Shown in pieces: positions 16,290 through 29,085 of a stretch of 64,000 nt of DNA. The notes under the pieces were generated by a model, which worked only from the letters and a program-made list of their open reading frames with translations, was not told the DNA's origin and made no database searches. Made by a program: the position numbers and the translations under genes. Numbering within the stretch: the first letter of the stretch is position 1; the number at the start of each line of letters is the position of its first letter. Source of the DNA: Candidatus Dormiibacterota bacterium (GTDB taxonomy: Bacteria; Chloroflexota; Dormibacteria; CF-121); assembly GCA_035544955.1 (NCBI GenBank), contig DASZZN010000029.1, forward strand, positions 1 to 64,000, in the 5' to 3' direction.

Positions 16290-17078
16290 ATGCTGTCCGC
16301 ACGCCACGGCTCGCTCGGTCGACTCACCGCCGCGCTGATGGCGGCAACCGTCCTGGCTGCTTGCGGAAATGTCCAGGCGAGCGAGGGCCAGCCGGTTCCC
16401 CGCCCATCTCCAATGGCGGCGATCTCTTCGCAACCGGGCGCGCAGCCTGCCGTCGCCCCCTCCGCCGATCAACTCCTTGTCCAGGCGCCCTTGGTCGATC
16501 CCAGCGTCGATCTCCGGGCGGGGCCAGTGGACGTGCCCGTCGAGCTGCGGATTCCGTCACTGCGGATCACCGCCCCCGTGCTTGGTGTAGGGATCAACGC
16601 CAAGAACGTGATGGACACGCCGACAGGTTCGGCGAACGATCCCGTTTGGCGCAAGGTCTTCTGGTATCGGGGTGGCGGCATCCCGGGCGACGCGACCACG
16701 GCGACGATCGCCGGTCATGTCGATGACGTTCTTGGCCGGCCCGCCGTCTTCGCGCACCTCAAAGACCTGAAGCCGGGCGACCGAATTGTCATCCACGATA
16801 CGGGGACCGACCTCGACGTCGAGTTCGTGGTGACCGCCACCGTCGTCTACACGCTCAAGCAGACCGTCGACCACACCGTGCTCTCGCGGATCTACGGGTC
16901 CGGACCTGCCGATGGGCAGGGGCCGCAGCCGTCGCCTGACGGCCTCGCCCACCTGACGCTGATAACGTGCACCGGGCACTGGGTCAGCGGATGGGGCACG
17001 TTCGATCACCGTCTGGCCGTCTACGCGGAGAGCCTTCCGTTGCCGCTCACACCTGGTCCACCGAATGGGAGGGCGTAA
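16290..17078 (+). CDS. Class E/F-like sortase, lipoprotein type
   Basis: 262 residues. The N-terminus has a lipobox (VLAAC, Cys25), and a Pro-rich linker leads to a sortase domain (about 80-248). Catalytic residues are visible: His143 in TIAGHVDD, Cys227 in LTLITCTG and Arg241 in DHRLAVYAE. Sortases cleave LPxTG-like signals and attach proteins to the wall; actinobacterial class E enzymes prefer LAxTG. Candidate substrates in this window are the ice-binding protein (LAQTG) and the two B12-locus proteins (LATTG, LTSTG). It follows the second ice-binding gene by 36 bp on the same strand. Confidence 0.85.
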   Translation: MLSARHGSLGRLTAALMAATVLAACGNVQASEGQPVPRPSPMAAISSQPGAQPAVAPSADQLLVQAPLVDPSVDLRAGPVDVPVELRIPSLRITAPVLGVGINAKNVMDTPTGSANDPVWRKVFWYRGGGIPGDATTATIAGHVDDVLGRPAVFAHLKDLKPGDRIVIHDTGTDLDVEFVVTATVVYTLKQTVDHTVLSRIYGSGPADGQGPQPSPDGLAHLTLITCTGHWVSGWGTFDHRLAVYAESLPLPLTPGPPNGRA

Positions 17079-21453: not shown

Positions 21454-23208
21454 TCAAGCGCCCTGACGGGCTCCGGCGTCCGCCCAGCGCGGGGTCGCAA
21501 CGTCGGCCGTAAGGACCTGCTCCTGAGCCAGGATTCGCCGCAGGATGGCGACCGATGAGGCGTAGGTGGAATCCAGGCCGTAGTAGGAGAGACCGCGCGC
21601 GCCTAGCGTGCGGGCCTGGGTGTACGGCGTATCAGAGGCGTAGTGAAGCACCCCGAAATCGAACGGCAGCTTGGTGAAGTTGATGTTCTCCCGCATCGGA
21701 TAGCGCGACGATTCAGCGGCTTCATAGAGGGCGTTGAGATAGGGACCGGCTTCCATTTCGACCACGGTGAAGCTCTCTCGGTGATAGAAGTCGAGATACC
21801 CGCGGTTTTGCAGGAAGGTGCCGCGAACCGTCACCGCGCGCTGATTGTCCAGCGCGGCGCCGTATACGAGGAAGGGCGCGACACTGTTGAAACTGAAACA
21901 GTTGTCCAGCCAGTACGTGTTTTCGGAGTGTTCTTCATAGACGACGTTGGAGATCATGATGTCGCCGATGCTACCGTTGAGGGTCGCTGCCTTGCCAAGG
22001 ACATAAACGCCGCGCAGCGTCCCGACACTCTCAGCCACTTCCCGCAGGACGTTGTAGGCACCGAGCCCGAGCGGGTAGTTGACATTGATCAAGACGGCCG
22101 GGCTGCGCTCCAGGCGATCCGGCGGCGGGCTCCCCAGCCGCGGATCGAGATCGTTGGCGACCAGCCGGTCGACAATGATCACCTGCGCCGCCACATCGAG
22201 GCCCGCCTGGCTCGGAAGGAAAAAGATGCCGCGCTCTTCTTCTTCCGCGGTGCGAAGCGCCCGCCGCCCCTCCGCCTCGGGTGACTGCCCGTAATAGGAG
22301 CGGGCCGCGTAATAGAGGAAGTTGTCCCAGTTGCCACGAGACTGACCCTGGCGGAGCTTCTTGAGCTCGGGTACCAACTCCAGGTTATTGCTGCGTTCGG
22401 TGAACTCCACGATCTCGTGTTGGTGCCGGCGCGCGGAGCCGCTCAATAGGTTCACGAGGCTATGCGTGTTGCTCGAGACGAAGTAGACCGGCCGGTCGCG
22501 CACGCCCTCGCGTTGCATCAGGGACTCGATCGGCTGCCACCAGCGGCGAGTGGCCTTGATGTAACCGATCTGGGTGCCGCCGAGCATCCGCACACGGAAG
22601 TCTTTCTCCTCGGCCCGGATGCGGCGGAGCGGCTCCAGCAAGTCGCCCCAGATTTCAACTAGGCGCAGCGCGTCATCCTCTGAAATGCCGAGTCGTTGCA
22701 GCACCTGGAACTGGTCGGCGACCGTCCTGGCCCGACTGAGGTCTTCCGCATTCAGCAGCGCGTGTAGCTTGTTCCATTCGATTTGAAGCGCGACCAGTTG
22801 CGGAATGACGTCGTCGATATCGGATGGGCTGGCGATGTATACGGCCAACGTCTCCTTGCCGTCGAAGTAGTAGCGACGGCGGCGCCCGGGCGCACTCTGC
22901 ATCTCCCACTTCTCCACGTCGACGTCGAGCAGCCGCTTGAAGACGTCAGCCGATTGGCCGAGCACGATTCGCTTGACTGCGGTGATGGAGGGAGGCAGGC
23001 GACGGAGCGCATAGATCAGCGCTCCGGTGTCCGGCTCGGGCGATCCGGCCTTCGGGTGCAGGCTCGACCGCATCCCGATGTGGGACTGCTCGAGCACCTT
23101 GAGCTTGGTTTCACCCGAGCTTCGTAGCAGCGTGCCGTACGTCCGGGTGTAGAGCTCGACCGCGTCACGGCCTGGCCCGCGGTCAGGGTCGGCATCGATG
23201 AAAGCCAT
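21454..23208 (-). CDS. Large conserved protein with nucleoside-phosphorylase-like C-terminus
   Basis: 584 residues, soluble. The N-terminal 250 residues are helical and charged. From about residue 375 the sequence resembles the purine nucleoside phosphorylase/MTA nucleosidase fold: LRGVYVLGKAATLNGSIGDI followed by MISNVVYEEHS, and the purine-site signature VVEMEAGPY near residue 493. This is a motif-level match only, and phosphate-site residues are not clear, so activity is uncertain. GGATAATAC lies 5-7 nt upstream of the ATG, suggesting leaderless expression. It is divergent from the small helical gene at 23357. Confidence 0.6.
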   Translation of the reverse strand: MAFIDADPDRGPGRDAVELYTRTYGTLLRSSGETKLKVLEQSHIGMRSSLHPKAGSPEPDTGALIYALRRLPPSITAVKRIVLGQSADVFKRLLDVDVEKWEMQSAPGRRRRYYFDGKETLAVYIASPSDIDDVIPQLVALQIEWNKLHALLNAEDLSRARTVADQFQVLQRLGISEDDALRLVEIWGDLLEPLRRIRAEEKDFRVRMLGGTQIGYIKATRRWWQPIESLMQREGVRDRPVYFVSSNTHSLVNLLSGSARRHQHEIVEFTERSNNLELVPELKKLRQGQSRGNWDNFLYYAARSYYGQSPEAEGRRALRTAEEEERGIFFLPSQAGLDVAAQVIIVDRLVANDLDPRLGSPPPDRLERSPAVLINVNYPLGLGAYNVLREVAESVGTLRGVYVLGKAATLNGSIGDIMISNVVYEEHSENTYWLDNCFSFNSVAPFLVYGAALDNQRAVTVRGTFLQNRGYLDFYHRESFTVVEMEAGPYLNALYEAAESSRYPMRENINFTKLPFDFGVLHYASDTPYTQARTLGARGLSYYGLDSTYASSVAILRRILAQEQVLTADVATPRWADAGARQGA

Positions 23209-23784: not shown

Positions 23785-23790
23785 TATAAT
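23785..23790 (+). promoter_or_regulatory. Consensus -10 box for the cobalamin riboswitch transcript
   Basis: TATAAT at 23785-23790 with only a weak -35 (TTTATC at 23762-23767, 17-bp spacer). Predicted start near 23797 gives a leader of about 300 nt before the first coding gene, consistent with the riboswitch that follows. Confidence 0.6.
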
Positions 23791-23846
23791 GCGGTCACCT
23801 TTTGGGGGAGGTGATGCCGACCAAGCGTTCCACAAGTTAAAAACGA

Positions 23847-24004
23847 CCGATAGGTGGCTCGAGGAGAGCTGAAAAGGGAAGCCGGTGCGAATCCGGCGCG
23901 AACCCGTCACTGTAACCGAGGAGCCGTGGGCGAGATCCACCGAGGCCGTGCCTTGGGAAGGAGCCCAGCGACAATGATCCGGAGCCAGGAGACCTGCCTA
24001 TCGG
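23847..24004 (+). ncRNA. Cobalamin (AdoCbl-type) riboswitch
   Basis: P1 is formed by CCGATAGG (23847-23854) and CCTATCGG (23997-24004). Within it are the conserved segments GAAGCCGGTGCGAATCCGGC, GTCACTGT and the B12 box GAGCCAGGAGACCTGCC (23982-23998), which defines the class. It precedes a predicted B12-capture and ECF import operon, so binding of cobalamin should switch the operon off when B12 is plentiful. Confidence 0.93.
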
Positions 24005-24060
24005 GGACCAACGACCCTCTTCGAGGCTGAGAGGGAGGTGCCAAGCATCTTCACGATCGG

Positions 24061-24090
24061 CCTCCAGTTGCGCATTCACTGCTCTGGAGG
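24061..24090 (+). promoter_or_regulatory. SD-sequestering hairpin of the riboswitch expression platform
   Basis: CCTCCAG (24061-24067) is perfectly complementary to CTGGAGG (24084-24090), which contains the ribosome binding site of the gene starting at 24096. Loop 16 nt. No terminator T tract is seen, so control is probably translational. Confidence 0.6.
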
Positions 24091-24095
24091 ACACC

Positions 24096-25208
24096 ATGAA
24101 AGGACGACTCACGGCGCTGGCTATCGCCGCGCTCGCGACGCTCGCATCGGCTATGCCGATTTCCGCCTTCACCCCGCAGTCGACCGCGGCATCCCAAGCC
24201 CTTGCATGGCTGCACACCTTGCAAGGAACCGACGGAACCGTGGCCGGCAACGCCTCGCGGACGGAGGAGACCGTCTGGGGCTTGATCGCCAACAACCTGG
24301 CCGTCGCCGACTTGTCCACGTCGGGAAAAACGCCGATCGATTCTCTGCGCACACACATCGCTGACGAAGAGAAGAGTGCGGGAAACATCGGTACCCTTCT
24401 CCTGGCGGTTTCGGCTGCCGGCCTCGATCCCACGACGTTCGCGGGACGGAACCTGCTGCAGGACCTGCAATGCACCTATAACCCATCGACGGGTGCATAC
24501 AACGGGCAACTCTTCAACGACGCCCTCGCCGTCCTCGCCCTGCCGGCCGGCGCCGCGACAGCGAAAGCGAAGCAGTTCCTCGCGAGTCGACAGCAGGCGG
24601 ACGGGGGCTGGGAGTTCCAGGCCGGCTACGGCTCCGATACCAACACCAGCGCACTCGTCCTGATGGCACTCGTGTCAGCTGACGGCCTGGACGCCACGAC
24701 AAGAGACAAGGCGCTCGCGTACTTCAAGCTCCACCAGAAACCCAGCGGAGGATTTGAGTATTCGGCGCCCTTTTCCCCGCCGGGAGATTCGGATCCCAAC
24801 TCGGATGCGGCAGTCATCGAGGCGTTGCTGGCAACTGGCCAGGATCCCACGTCGGCCGCCTGGTCCATCGGCGACAAGAATGCGGTCACCGATCTCCTGA
24901 CCTTCCAGTACCCGAACGGTGGACTTGGTTTCACGCGTCCCGGCCCGTCGGCCAGCGGCACAGCTGACGCCTTCTCGACCACGCAAGCCCTGCCGGCCCT
25001 CACATCGAAGTACCTCCCGGTGAAAAAGACCAACGGGGTCATGCCATCGACATGTCCGGCGGTACCGATCACGACACCGACCCCGACCCCGTCGACAACG
25101 CAACTGGCCACGACGGGCGCTCCGCCAGATCCCACACCGCTGCTGCCGATGGTGGCTGGACTCGCCATCGTGGCGCTCGGCTGGAGACTGCGCCGACGCG
25201 CTCGCTGA
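24096..25208 (+). CDS. Surface alpha/alpha-barrel protein, transcobalamin alpha-domain-like, LATTG tail
   Basis: 370 residues. A signal peptide (to about 25) is followed by prenyltransferase/squalene-cyclase-type repeats: ALAWLHTLQGTDGTV, AKQFLASRQQADGGWEFQ, VTDLLTFQYPNGGLGF. This alpha6/alpha6 barrel is also the cobalamin-cradling domain of intrinsic factor and transcobalamin. A Thr/Pro linker leads to LATTG (337-341), a hydrophobic segment and RLRRRAR, a sortase-type tail. It is the first gene after the cobalamin riboswitch and is coupled to the next gene. I infer B12 binding at the cell wall; terpene cyclisation is unlikely because DxDD-type acid motifs are not seen and the protein is secreted. 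Confidence 0.75.
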   Translation: MKGRLTALAIAALATLASAMPISAFTPQSTAASQALAWLHTLQGTDGTVAGNASRTEETVWGLIANNLAVADLSTSGKTPIDSLRTHIADEEKSAGNIGTLLLAVSAAGLDPTTFAGRNLLQDLQCTYNPSTGAYNGQLFNDALAVLALPAGAATAKAKQFLASRQQADGGWEFQAGYGSDTNTSALVLMALVSADGLDATTRDKALAYFKLHQKPSGGFEYSAPFSPPGDSDPNSDAAVIEALLATGQDPTSAAWSIGDKNAVTDLLTFQYPNGGLGFTRPGPSASGTADAFSTTQALPALTSKYLPVKKTNGVMPSTCPAVPITTPTPTPSTTQLATTGAPPDPTPLLPMVAGLAIVALGWRLRRRAR

Positions 25209-25933
25209 GAATCGCCAAAACGACGTGGCTGGGTGCCGCCGCGGCGGCGGCGCTCATCGCCGGCCTCCTCTCCATGCGGCCGGCCCATGCGGCGATCCAT
25301 CACGCCGCGCTGGTCATCCAGCACGCGAGCGGGAGCGTCATCACGCGATGCGTGGCCTTTGCGGAAGACCAGATCACCGGGCTTCAACTGGTCGAGCGCT
25401 CGGGCGTGCAGTACGAGGCGCAGAATTTCGGTTCGATCGGGAGTGCGATGTGTCAGCTCGACCGGGAGCCATCGAGCATGCCATCCGGATGCTTCGGCGC
25501 CGGACCGTACTGGCAGTACTTCCATCGTCGGGGCAGCGCCTGGCAAACATCGGCGTTCGGGGCCAGCTCGTCGCTCCTGCGCGACGGCGACATGGACGGA
25601 TGGCATTTTGCAGTGGGGGCGAATCAGGTTCCCGGCAGCGTGGCGTTTTCGTCGGTCTGCGCCGCGCCCGCGCCACCCGCCGCGACCGCAACGCAGGTGA
25701 CGCACGCACCGAATCACGCGACCCCTCTTCCGGCGGCAACGCCCGCACCGTCGACCAGCCTGGAGGCGTTGGCGCCGTCAGACTCACCGCCGCCCAATGC
25801 CGTGCTGACATCCACGGGACCGCCCACGCAGCCGCCGAAAGCGACCGCGCTCGGACCCTGGCTCGCGTTCGGCAGTATCGCGATCCTGCTCCTGACGCTC
25901 GGTGCCGTCAACCTGCGGAGGCGGGGCCCGTGA
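25205..25933 (+). CDS. Surface DUF4430-like protein, transcobalamin beta-domain-like, LTSTG tail
   Basis: 242 residues from CTG 25205, which overlaps the preceding stop (CTGA) and yields a textbook signal peptide (RIAKTTWLGAAAAAALIAG...RPAHA). No in-frame ATG or GTG nearby gives a signal peptide. The mature domain (about 35-150) has the DUF4430 pattern: ITGLQLVERSGV, paired Cys, GPYWQYFHRRGSAW, then DGDMDGWHF. In transcobalamin and intrinsic factor this beta domain closes over B12 bound to the alpha barrel. A Pro/Ala linker leads to LTSTG (201-205), a membrane span and LRRRG. I infer it pairs with the upstream barrel. Confidence 0.7.
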   Translation: MRIAKTTWLGAAAAAALIAGLLSMRPAHAAIHHAALVIQHASGSVITRCVAFAEDQITGLQLVERSGVQYEAQNFGSIGSAMCQLDREPSSMPSGCFGAGPYWQYFHRRGSAWQTSAFGASSSLLRDGDMDGWHFAVGANQVPGSVAFSSVCAAPAPPAATATQVTHAPNHATPLPAATPAPSTSLEALAPSDSPPPNAVLTSTGPPTQPPKATALGPWLAFGSIAILLLTLGAVNLRRRGP

Positions 25934-26766
25934 TCCGCCACCCGTTCGCCTGGGGCGTATGGGCGATCGCGGTCCTTGCCGCCGCATTCATCGACCGCAA
26001 TCCGTACCTGCAGGTGCTGCTGTTGCTGGTCGTAGTGAACGTCTTTCTGCCCTACCGTGCACGTCGCCGCGTCCGGACCTGGAAGTTCGCGGTGGCACTG
26101 GCGTTGGTGCCCGTCGTCTTCAGCGTCGCGCTCAGCCGTTTCGGCCAGCACGCGCTCTTTACGCTGCCGGCGATCCCGATCATCGGCGGACGCTGGACCT
26201 TCGATGCCGTCGCGTTTGGCGCCTCGACCGGCCTGGCCCTCGTGCTGACGGTCGCCGTCTTCGCCGTCGTGCAAAGCACCGTGCGAAGCGCCGACCTCGT
26301 CGCGATCCTTCCCCGCCCGCTGTACCGGGCAGGCACGACCGTCGCCCTCGCCCTCGCCTTCGCACCAAAAACGCTGACCGCGTTTCAATCGATCCGCGAG
26401 TCGCGCCAGCTGCGCGGGCGGCGAACCGGCTGGCGATCGGCGCCCGCGTTGCTGCTGCCGCTCCTGCTCACGACCCTCGAGCGCGCGCTGCAGTATGGCG
26501 AGTCGCTCGACGCGCGCGGTTTCGGCAGCGGCCGCAGGTCCCGATACCGCCCGCTCCAATGGACACCCGGGGACCTGCTGGTCCTGCTCGCCTCGCTCGC
26601 GGCGATCGTCGCCATCGCGGTGTTGCCGGGCGTTTCGTATAACCCGTACCAGGAGCTGGTGCCGAGCGTTCCGGACCCGGATCAGCTGCTGGCTGTCGGC
26701 CTGCTCGCCGTGCCCGCCGTCACCGCCAGCCTTTCGCGAGTGGACCATGCCCCTCATCACGCTTGA
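25930..26766 (+). CDS. ECF transporter T component (EcfT/CbiQ family)
   Basis: 278 residues from GTG 25930, which overlaps the previous stop (GTGA). About five membrane spans. The cytoplasmic coupling helices carry RESRQLRGRRTG (about 158-169) and ESLDARGFGS (about 195-204), the two xRG motifs that dock onto the ATPases. It is the scaffold linking the S component to the EcfA pair. Its 3' end overlaps the ATPase gene by 20 nt. Position in the B12-controlled operon indicates cobalamin or a precursor as substrate. Confidence 0.85.
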   Translation: MIRHPFAWGVWAIAVLAAAFIDRNPYLQVLLLLVVVNVFLPYRARRRVRTWKFAVALALVPVVFSVALSRFGQHALFTLPAIPIIGGRWTFDAVAFGASTGLALVLTVAVFAVVQSTVRSADLVAILPRPLYRAGTTVALALAFAPKTLTAFQSIRESRQLRGRRTGWRSAPALLLPLLLTTLERALQYGESLDARGFGSGRRSRYRPLQWTPGDLLVLLASLAAIVAIAVLPGVSYNPYQELVPSVPDPDQLLAVGLLAVPAVTASLSRVDHAPHHA

Positions 26767-28249
26767 CGCCGTCAGCTATCGCTACCCGGAGGCCGACAAG
26801 CCTGCGCTGAGTGACGTCACGACGACGGTCGAGCCCGGCGAAGTGATCCTCCTCCGCGGCGCCTCGGGCAGCGGAAAGTCGACCCTGCTTCGCTGCCTGA
26901 ACGGTCTCGTCCCGCACAGCACCGGGGGCCAGTTCCGTGGCCGGGTCGTGGTCTGCGGCCTCGACACGCGGGCGCACCCACCACGACAGCTCGGGATCCA
27001 CATCGGTTTCGTCTTTCAGCATCCCGAGGCGCAGTTCGTTCTCGAGGACGTCGAGGCCGAGCTGGCGTTTGGTCTCGAGAATCTCGGACTCTCGCGGCCG
27101 CTGATGCGCAAGCGCGTCGAGGAAGTGATCGACCAGGTCGGTATTAACCCGCTGCGGCGTCGCCGGATCGATACCCTCTCGGGCGGCGAACGCCAGCGCG
27201 TCGCCATCGCGGCCGCGCTCGCCATGCACCCGGATGCGCTCGTCCTCGATGAGCCGACCTCGCAGCTCGACCCGCAGGCCGCCGAGGACGTCCTACAGGT
27301 CGTGCTCCGGCTGGTTGCCGAGCTCGGTATGACGACGGTGATCGCCGAGCATCGCGTCGAGCGCATCGCGCCCTTCGTCGATCGCATCTGGACGCTCGAC
27401 GGCGGGATGCTGCGTGACCAGGCGCCGCGTGTCGCACTTGCCGAAGGCGGAGCCCGCCCGCCCGTCGTCGACCTGGCGCTGCGGGCCGGGTGGACACCGA
27501 TCCCGCTAGGACTTCGGGACGCCCGCGTCCATGCGCAACGCCTGCCCAGGGCCCCAGCCAAACCCGTGCCCGTTGACGGCCACGGGCCCGTCATCTGCCG
27601 GATTGACCGACTGGATCATCGCTACGACACCATCCCCGCGGTGCAGGGTGTGTCGTTGACCCTGTGCCGAGGCCAGGTTGTCGCCTTGATGGGTCGCAAT
27701 GGATCCGGAAAGACCACACTCTTGCGGTTGATCGCCGGGCTGATGCGGCCACAACACGGCACCGTCACGCATGAGGGCATTGCCGCCTACGTACCGCAGG
27801 ACGCCGACTCGCTGCTGTTCGCGCCAACCGTGAGTGAGGAGCTGCGGGGCCAGGCGGCCGAGGTCGTCGCGCCGTTCGCCGCCTGGCTCCATCGTTATCC
27901 ACGTGACCTGAGCTCGGGCGAGCGTCAGCAACTGGCCATCGCCTTGATGGGGGCCCGAGCCGACCTGTTGCTGCTCGACGAACCGACGCGTGGACTCGAT
28001 CCCCAGGTGAAGCGGGCCCTCAGCGCCTACCTGCGCACGCGCGCCGGCGCGGGCGCCGGGATCCTGGTCGCCACCCACGACGTCGAATGGGCGGCCCGCA
28101 CGGCCGATCGCGTGCTCCTGATGGCAGACGGCGAAATCTACGCCGACGGTCCACCAGCCAGCGTGTTGAGTGACTCCCTGGTTTTTGCTACGCAGATCAG
28201 CAAGCTCGTCGGTGGCGGTTGGCTCCTGCCGGAGGCGGTGCCGATATGA
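26747..28249 (+). CDS. Fused EcfA-EcfA' ATPase of the ECF transporter
   Basis: 500 residues from ATG 26747. Two complete ABC ATPase domains: the first with Walker A GASGSGKS (38-45), signature LSGGERQR and Walker B ALVLDEPTSQLD; the second (from about residue 285) with GRNGSGKT, LSSGERQQ and LLLLDEPTRGLD. ECF systems usually encode these separately or as duplicates; here one polypeptide supplies both sites. Q-loop sequence FQHPEAQF in the first half is typical of EcfA. The S component starts inside its stop (ATGA). Confidence 0.9.
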   Translation: MPLITLDAVSYRYPEADKPALSDVTTTVEPGEVILLRGASGSGKSTLLRCLNGLVPHSTGGQFRGRVVVCGLDTRAHPPRQLGIHIGFVFQHPEAQFVLEDVEAELAFGLENLGLSRPLMRKRVEEVIDQVGINPLRRRRIDTLSGGERQRVAIAAALAMHPDALVLDEPTSQLDPQAAEDVLQVVLRLVAELGMTTVIAEHRVERIAPFVDRIWTLDGGMLRDQAPRVALAEGGARPPVVDLALRAGWTPIPLGLRDARVHAQRLPRAPAKPVPVDGHGPVICRIDRLDHRYDTIPAVQGVSLTLCRGQVVALMGRNGSGKTTLLRLIAGLMRPQHGTVTHEGIAAYVPQDADSLLFAPTVSEELRGQAAEVVAPFAAWLHRYPRDLSSGERQQLAIALMGARADLLLLDEPTRGLDPQVKRALSAYLRTRAGAGAGILVATHDVEWAARTADRVLLMADGEIYADGPPASVLSDSLVFATQISKLVGGGWLLPEAVPI

Positions 28250-29085
28250 CCCGATGGCTCGCCGCCCGGGCCGAAGACGCGGTCTTGCTCGGGCTCACCG
28301 GCGCCGGGCTCGCGCTTTTCATCGGACCGCTCCTGCTCGGACCAGCCTTTCCGCAACCCGTGGTGCTCTTCAGCGCGCTGGTCGCTGTCTCGACAGTGGT
28401 CGTGCTGGGCGTCGCCCTCCAAACCCATCGCCTCTCGACCCGGCTGCTGGCGGTGCTGGCGGCGCTGGTCGCGATCGATGCCACGCTGAGGCTCGTCATC
28501 GTCATCGGGCTCCTCGGCTTTTCACCGATCTTTTTCCTGGTGATCGCGGGCGGATTCGTGATGGGGCCAAGCTTCGGCTTCGCCGGTGGCGCCCTGACGC
28601 TGCTCCTGTCCGCCGTCCTGACGGCGGGCCTGGGGCCGTGGCTTCCCTACCAGATGCTTGCCGCGGGTTGGGTCGGCATGGGCGCCGGATACCTTGGCCG
28701 GGCGACTCGCCGCTCCACCTCGCCCTTGGCCGTCGCCCTGCTGTGCCTCTATGGCGGCCTGGCCGGCTTCGCCTATGGCCTGCTGCTCGACCTCTGGGAA
28801 TGGCCGTTGCTCGTCGCCGCCGGATCATCACCGTTGAGCTGGGCGCCCGGGATCGGCCTGGCGGCCCTGCTTCGCCGCGCCGGCGGCTTCTACCTCGCAA
28901 CCTCGGTCGCCTACGACAGCTTCCGGGCCGCCGGCAACTTGGTGCTGCTCGCCCTGCTGGGTCCGGCCGTGATCCGTGCCCTCGACCGCTTCCGGCGTCG
29001 CTTCCTCCTGGACTGGGTCGAGCCCGAATCGGGGCCGGAACCGGCCCCCGCTAAGATTTCGGCAGATGTCGGAACTCCCGCCTGA
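28246..29085 (+). CDS. ECF transporter S component, probably cobalamin-specific
   Basis: 279 residues from ATG 28246, overlapping the ATPase stop by 4 nt. About six membrane spans; the core GFSPIFFLVIAGGFVMGPSF and GFAGGALTLLLSAVLTAG resembles ECF S components of the CbrT-like group. It binds the substrate in the membrane and docks on EcfT-EcfA. Specificity for cobalamin or a precursor is inferred from the riboswitch and the transcobalamin-like partners. The C-terminal tail (VEPESGPEPAPAKISADVG) overlaps the start of the next gene. Confidence 0.8.
   Translation: MTRWLAARAEDAVLLGLTGAGLALFIGPLLLGPAFPQPVVLFSALVAVSTVVVLGVALQTHRLSTRLLAVLAALVAIDATLRLVIVIGLLGFSPIFFLVIAGGFVMGPSFGFAGGALTLLLSAVLTAGLGPWLPYQMLAAGWVGMGAGYLGRATRRSTSPLAVALLCLYGGLAGFAYGLLLDLWEWPLLVAAGSSPLSWAPGIGLAALLRRAGGFYLATSVAYDSFRAAGNLVLLALLGPAVIRALDRFRRRFLLDWVEPESGPEPAPAKISADVGTPA

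Follow-up and report, generated by a model that had tools for sequence, protein, structure and literature searches.

A candidate corrinoid-scavenging operon pairing two transcobalamin-type surface proteins with a CbrT-like ECF transporter in a Chloroflexota genome

How might a bacterium that looks dependent on imported vitamin B12 gather this vitamin at its surface for an energy-coupling factor (ECF) transporter? The question is raised by a five-gene operon on contig DASZZN010000029.1 of Candidatus Dormiibacterota bacterium (Chloroflexota; assembly GCA_035544955.1), of which we analysed the first 64,000 nucleotides, hereafter the window. An earlier note, made from the sequence alone, had read the locus as a cobalamin riboswitch followed by two wall-anchored proteins that together act as a split transcobalamin and hand B12 to an ECF importer. 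Our analysis indicates that the locus is probably a riboswitch-controlled operon for scavenging corrinoids (vitamin B12), in which two surface proteins, P1 and P2, match the two domains of transcobalamin and intrinsic factor and feed a CbrT-like ECF importer.

Operon, transporter and genome context

A full-length cobalamin riboswitch aptamer (RF00174) was found by cmscan at positions 23835-24015 of the plus strand, its score of 111.4 bits (E = 4.7e-27) lying above the gathering score of 31.5. It is the sole cobalamin riboswitch in this 3.67-Mb, 95% complete genome, and such an element is present at 38 of the 42 scanned loci of the same operon type. Five plus-strand genes follow in the order P1 (24096-25208), P2 (25205-25933), EcfT (25930-26766), a fused EcfA-EcfA' (26747-28249) and EcfS (28246-29085), each overlapping the next, by 4, 4, 20 and 4 nt respectively. 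Both the riboswitch and the tightly overlapping gene set are thus as the earlier note had described them. The start codon of P2 is CTG, which overlaps the stop codon of P1 as CTGA; in L032, the nearest relative, the codon at this position is GTG. The close relatives identified by name are metagenome-assembled genomes from soil, labelled 'Chloroflexi bacterium'.

The last three genes encode the parts of an ECF transporter. EcfT, the transmembrane coupling protein, matches PF02361 (CbiQ) at 26.5 bits, above the cut-off, and the fused ATPase contains two ABC_tran stretches whose best NCBIfam matches are ECF ATPases. EcfS, the substrate-binding component, matches ECF_trnsprt below the cut-off, and 24 of 25 members of its family carry PF12822. 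The profile of this family (alignment A4) has CbrT as its best solved relative (6FNP chain A, E = 6.8e-7), followed by FolT (E = 0.002-0.005); EcfS has no CbiM match. As 6FNP is ECF-CbrT, the cobalamin transporter of Lactobacillus delbrueckii (PMC5997447), the nearest solved S component is cobalamin-specific and stands ahead of the folate protein. The window genes therefore comprise the complete CbrT-type set, with an S component nearest CbrT, EcfT and two ATPase domains.

The rest of the genome points to a scavenger. A single match to TP_methylase, a corrinoid-type methyltransferase, was found, so the corrin ring is probably not synthesized. Two B12-binding proteins that need the cofactor are encoded, methylmalonyl-CoA mutase and a corrinoid protein adjoining metF. 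No BtuC candidate was found in the genome: the only FecCD match belongs to a permease of zinc type, accompanied by its ATPase and a regulator resembling Fur. The P1-P2-ECF operon is the only candidate B12 importer found, and the gene content suggests an organism that uses B12 and depends on importing it.

Two proteins resembling the domains of transcobalamin

P2 is a 242-residue protein with a signal-peptide-like N-terminus and an LTSTG motif followed by a C-terminal hydrophobic membrane segment. It has no match in Pfam, DUF4430 (PF14478) included, and reaches the NCBIfam model SCO2322_fam (NF040672) with 30.2 bits against a cut-off of 85 (E = 5e-7). We predicted its structure with AlphaFold from an alignment of 45 homologues (A1); another alignment (A2), which combined toroid proteins with beta-only ones, misplaced the beta domains and was kept out of the modelling. 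The model has a predicted local distance difference test (pLDDT) value of 93.3. In a Foldseek comparison with the PDB, its first 19 matches comprise transcobalamin, haptocorrin, intrinsic factor and 3u7z and nothing else, with unrelated folds beginning only at E = 0.07. Human transcobalamin, in the form of its isolated beta domain (5no0; E = 5.9e-5, target TM-score (TMt) 0.70), ranks first, and the TMt reaches 0.81 for 3u7z, the DUF4430 protein RUMGNA_00854 of Ruminococcus gnavus. P2 resembles the DUF4430 proteins in fold and at key positions, though not through a Pfam match of its own; comparison of its profile with canonical DUF4430 domains by HHalign gave 73% (E = 3e-5) over matching positions, and Pfam DUF4430 matches one fused homologue weakly (L035, E = 0.004). 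The model and the profile comparison together therefore justify the label 'DUF4430-like' given earlier to P2 at the level of the fold, and by fold P2 has the C-terminal beta domain of the transcobalamin/intrinsic factor family.

P1 (370 residues) has a hydrophobic, signal-peptide-like N-terminus and ends in LATTG, a hydrophobic segment and a basic tail. Its sequence matches the SQHop_cyclase/Prenyltrans repeats of Pfam slightly below the cut-off (E = 1e-4 to 5e-4) and SCO2321_fam (NF053823) with 75.9 bits against a cut-off of 300 (E = 3e-21), and the alpha/alpha-toroid fold is seen in the model of a homologous chain (L066, below). This agrees with the exported alpha/alpha-barrel protein with a sorting tail that had been proposed. 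P1 does not match the Pfam family PF01122 (Cobalamin_bind), for which the best homologue scores 16.1 bits against a cut-off of 25. The two NCBIfam families are named from Streptomyces coelicolor loci and carry no function; as P1 and P2 score below the curated cut-offs, we regard them as relatives of these families and do not call them members.

The link between the two proteins is provided by natural homologues, which were searched for in Chloroflexota and then in Anaerolineaceae. At five Anaerolineaceae loci (L065-L069), a single chain of about 540-577 residues contains one toroid, then the P2 domain and a membrane segment, and at nine further loci the chain has two toroids and about 830 residues. 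The order from toroid to beta domain is that of transcobalamin, EcfS and EcfT lie downstream, and a cobalamin riboswitch precedes the one-chain genes in those scanned. The AlphaFold model of one of these chains, L066, has a pLDDT of 91.6 and a predicted TM-score (pTM) of 0.80. In the PDB, each of its 14 top places goes to transcobalamin, haptocorrin or intrinsic factor, with alignments that span both domains.

Distribution, variant forms and surface anchoring

Among 201 Chloroflexota genomes, P2 was found in 50 and the S family in 49, and the two coincide in 46 (Fisher p = 7e-37, without correction for kinship). The toroid is present in 40 of the 201, of which 38 have P2; the other two (G057 and G138) have a canonical DUF4430 protein instead. 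The co-occurrence extends to six genomes in which the EcfS gene lies on the same contig as the P1-P2 genes at a distance of 90 kb to more than 1 Mb. P2 without a toroid is limited to two families, f3 and f4, and to one genome with a partial P2 match (G115). In the EcfS tree, the fused forms make up one clade that is nested among split forms; those lacking a toroid fall on the same side as the window.

Five f3/f4 relatives have no toroid gene, and their P2 homologue carries a lipobox (LALGAVTACG in one case). Judged from sequence, this homologue appears to be a corrinoid-binding lipoprotein that acts on its own; its gene lies next to the same ECF genes and, at the loci scanned, the riboswitch. 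In G057 and G138, canonical DUF4430 lipoproteins adjoin EcfT, EcfA and an only weakly related EcfS (L090, L091), and a toroid is fused to a canonical DUF4430 domain at L092:5157-7130 (minus strand, G138). At these loci a helix-turn-helix-type gene is found near the toroid in place of the cobalamin riboswitch. Outside Chloroflexota, a plasmid search returned one actinomycete locus (L085), on a 5.7-Mb linear plasmid of Embleya sp. NBC_00888. Its unannotated stretch keeps the same gene order and contains two cobalamin riboswitches, a toroid protein bearing LARTG, a complete ECF set and two SCO2322-like proteins.

The tails of the two proteins differ in how widely they are kept. Among the relatives with one toroid, most end in an L[PA]xTG tail, and the relative L042 reaches the LPXTG model TIGR01167. 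P1 combines an LPxTG-like motif, a hydrophobic segment and a basic tail, and the genome encodes four sortase-family proteins; conserved tails and sortases together indicate that P1 is probably sorted to the wall. The LTSTG-type tail of P2 is common only to its close relatives, more distant homologues having a membrane segment only or, in the toroid-less group, the lipobox, and P2 is thus predicted to be at least membrane-tethered. The wall anchoring proposed for both proteins in the earlier note therefore finds good support for P1 and, for P2, in close relatives only. A second SCO2322-like copy, at L041:8526-9212 (minus strand), ends in a PEP-CTERM-like tail, which brings the sorting signals found on the beta domain to three kinds.

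One of the four sortase-family genes lies in the window at 16290-17078 on the plus strand (PF04203 at 16545-17030, 62 bits, above the cut-off), and its product is a possible partner for the sorting tails. Its N-terminus is lipobox-like (LAACG), which is unusual in a sortase. Elsewhere in the window, the minus strand encodes at 21454-23208 a protein matching DUF6909 (E = 1e-211), a family of unknown function.

Known systems, alternatives and meaning

Compared with the animal B12 carriers transcobalamin, intrinsic factor and haptocorrin (2bb5, 2pmv, 4kki; beta domain 5no0), the bacterial system is alike in the beta fold of P2, in the make-up and order of domains in the fused homologues and in the presumed ligand. 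The animal proteins are single chains, as are the Anaerolineaceae homologues, whereas in the window two genes encode two separate chains that are predicted to be exported and tethered to the cell, and that would serve an ECF importer where the animal carriers serve endocytosis. Sequence identity in the fold alignments is 8-17%, and Pfam Cobalamin_bind is not reached. With ECF-CbrT the window shares the parts of the ECF module and, as its closest solved S component, a protein whose substrate is cobalamin. However, the ECF module of CbrT is described as a shared one (group II), and no extracellular capture protein belongs to its description (PMC5997447), while the window has a dedicated riboswitch operon with two surface proteins and a fused ATPase. 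For auxotrophic acI Actinobacteria, it was also proposed that ECF modules preceded by cobalamin riboswitches import cobalamin, in passages that mention no capture proteins (PMC5301498).

These comparisons suggest the following mechanism. Intracellular cobalamin would switch the operon off through the riboswitch, and low cobalamin would lead to expression. P2, as a DUF4430-type beta domain at the outer membrane face, would hold the corrinoid and act as core binder beside the transporter, and the P1 toroid may close over the corrinoid or pre-concentrate it in the wall. The corrinoid would then pass to the CbrT-like EcfS and be imported by EcfT and EcfA-A' in an ATP-driven manner. Computation supports the riboswitch, the gene set, the fold of P2, the natural one-chain homologues, the CbrT-like S component and the setting of a B12 auxotroph; the binding of B12, the P1-P2 complex, the wall attachment and the hand-over are the steps that we infer.

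Several observations weigh against this scheme. The ligand-free L066 model superposes on transcobalamin and intrinsic factor over both domains with a root-mean-square deviation of 22-24 Å, so its domain placement differs from that in the B12-bound structures; in the model this may reflect either apo flexibility or a different arrangement. Taken by itself, the toroid is no closer to the B12 carriers than to terpene cyclases and RabGGTase. A search of PDB chains with the P2 sequence profile finds neither transcobalamin nor anything related, the link being made by fold. The two DUF4430-type loci L090 and L091 have no cobalamin riboswitch. Lastly, in f3/f4 the toroid is missing, although P2, the S component and the riboswitch are all present. 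As one lineage lacks it, the toroid appears dispensable for transport, and since P1 is absent where P2 and the transporter are kept, P2 is probably the core part and P1 an enhancer.

A possible alternative, though one we consider distinctly less likely, takes up these last points: P2 alone would bind the corrinoid and feed the S component, with P1 an accessory, either a wall concentrator or a structural partner, and no transcobalamin-like clamp. The toroid-free lipoprotein that f3/f4 encode together with these ECF genes and the riboswitch fits this proposal, as does the absence of a closed clamp in the fused L066 model. However, the toroid accompanies P2 outside f3/f4, being present in 38 of the 50 genomes that have P2, and the two are fused in transcobalamin order in Anaerolineaceae, the toroid being fused also to canonical DUF4430 in L092. 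Import of cobalt in place of cobalamin is very improbable. Cobalt ECF transporters are also under cobalamin riboswitch control, and EcfT scores as CbiQ, but the S component is of the ECF_trnsprt type with CbrT as best solved relative and no CbiM match, the corrin methyltransferases are too few for cobalt to be used in corrin synthesis, and a transcobalamin-type beta fold would be left without a role. On the S component and the missing corrin synthesis, a cobalt importer was rejected. Less credible still is a reading in which P1 would be an exported enzyme of terpene-cyclase type, P2 a surface protein with no relation to it, and their place beside the ECF genes a matter of chance. The sequence matches of P1 are indeed squalene-hopene cyclase repeats, yet P1 has export signals, stands under riboswitch control and contains no DxDD motif, the acids that were sought as the mark of a cyclase; on this ground a type II terpene cyclase was rejected. 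The neighbourhood, for its part, is conserved across Chloroflexota and in an actinomycete, and toroid and beta domain occur as one-chain fusions.

Taken together, the P2 fold, the one-chain homologues, the CbrT-like S component and the scavenger context favour the split-transcobalamin B12 importer of the earlier note, whereas the L066 model lacks a closed arrangement and the toroid is not indispensable. We are moderately inclined to the view that a bacterial two-protein transcobalamin captures corrinoids at the cell surface for a dedicated ECF importer, and that it exists in split, fused, double-toroid and toroid-less forms. A literature search, with preprints and most subscription journals outside its coverage, found no description of a bacterial transcobalamin-like binder, and we provisionally regard the split pair as undescribed. 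The suggestion that the form may be new holds to that extent, both families being already in NCBIfam, without function.

Descriptions of ECF transporters normally give the S component as their sole substrate binder. If the proposed system is correct, it would add an outside capture step to ECF import of the largest vitamin, and it would provide a prokaryotic counterpart of, or source for, the animal B12 carriers. It would also explain two NCBI families named by locus tag only (SCO2321 and SCO2322), and the natural one-chain and split forms could be used to probe how the two domains close around B12.

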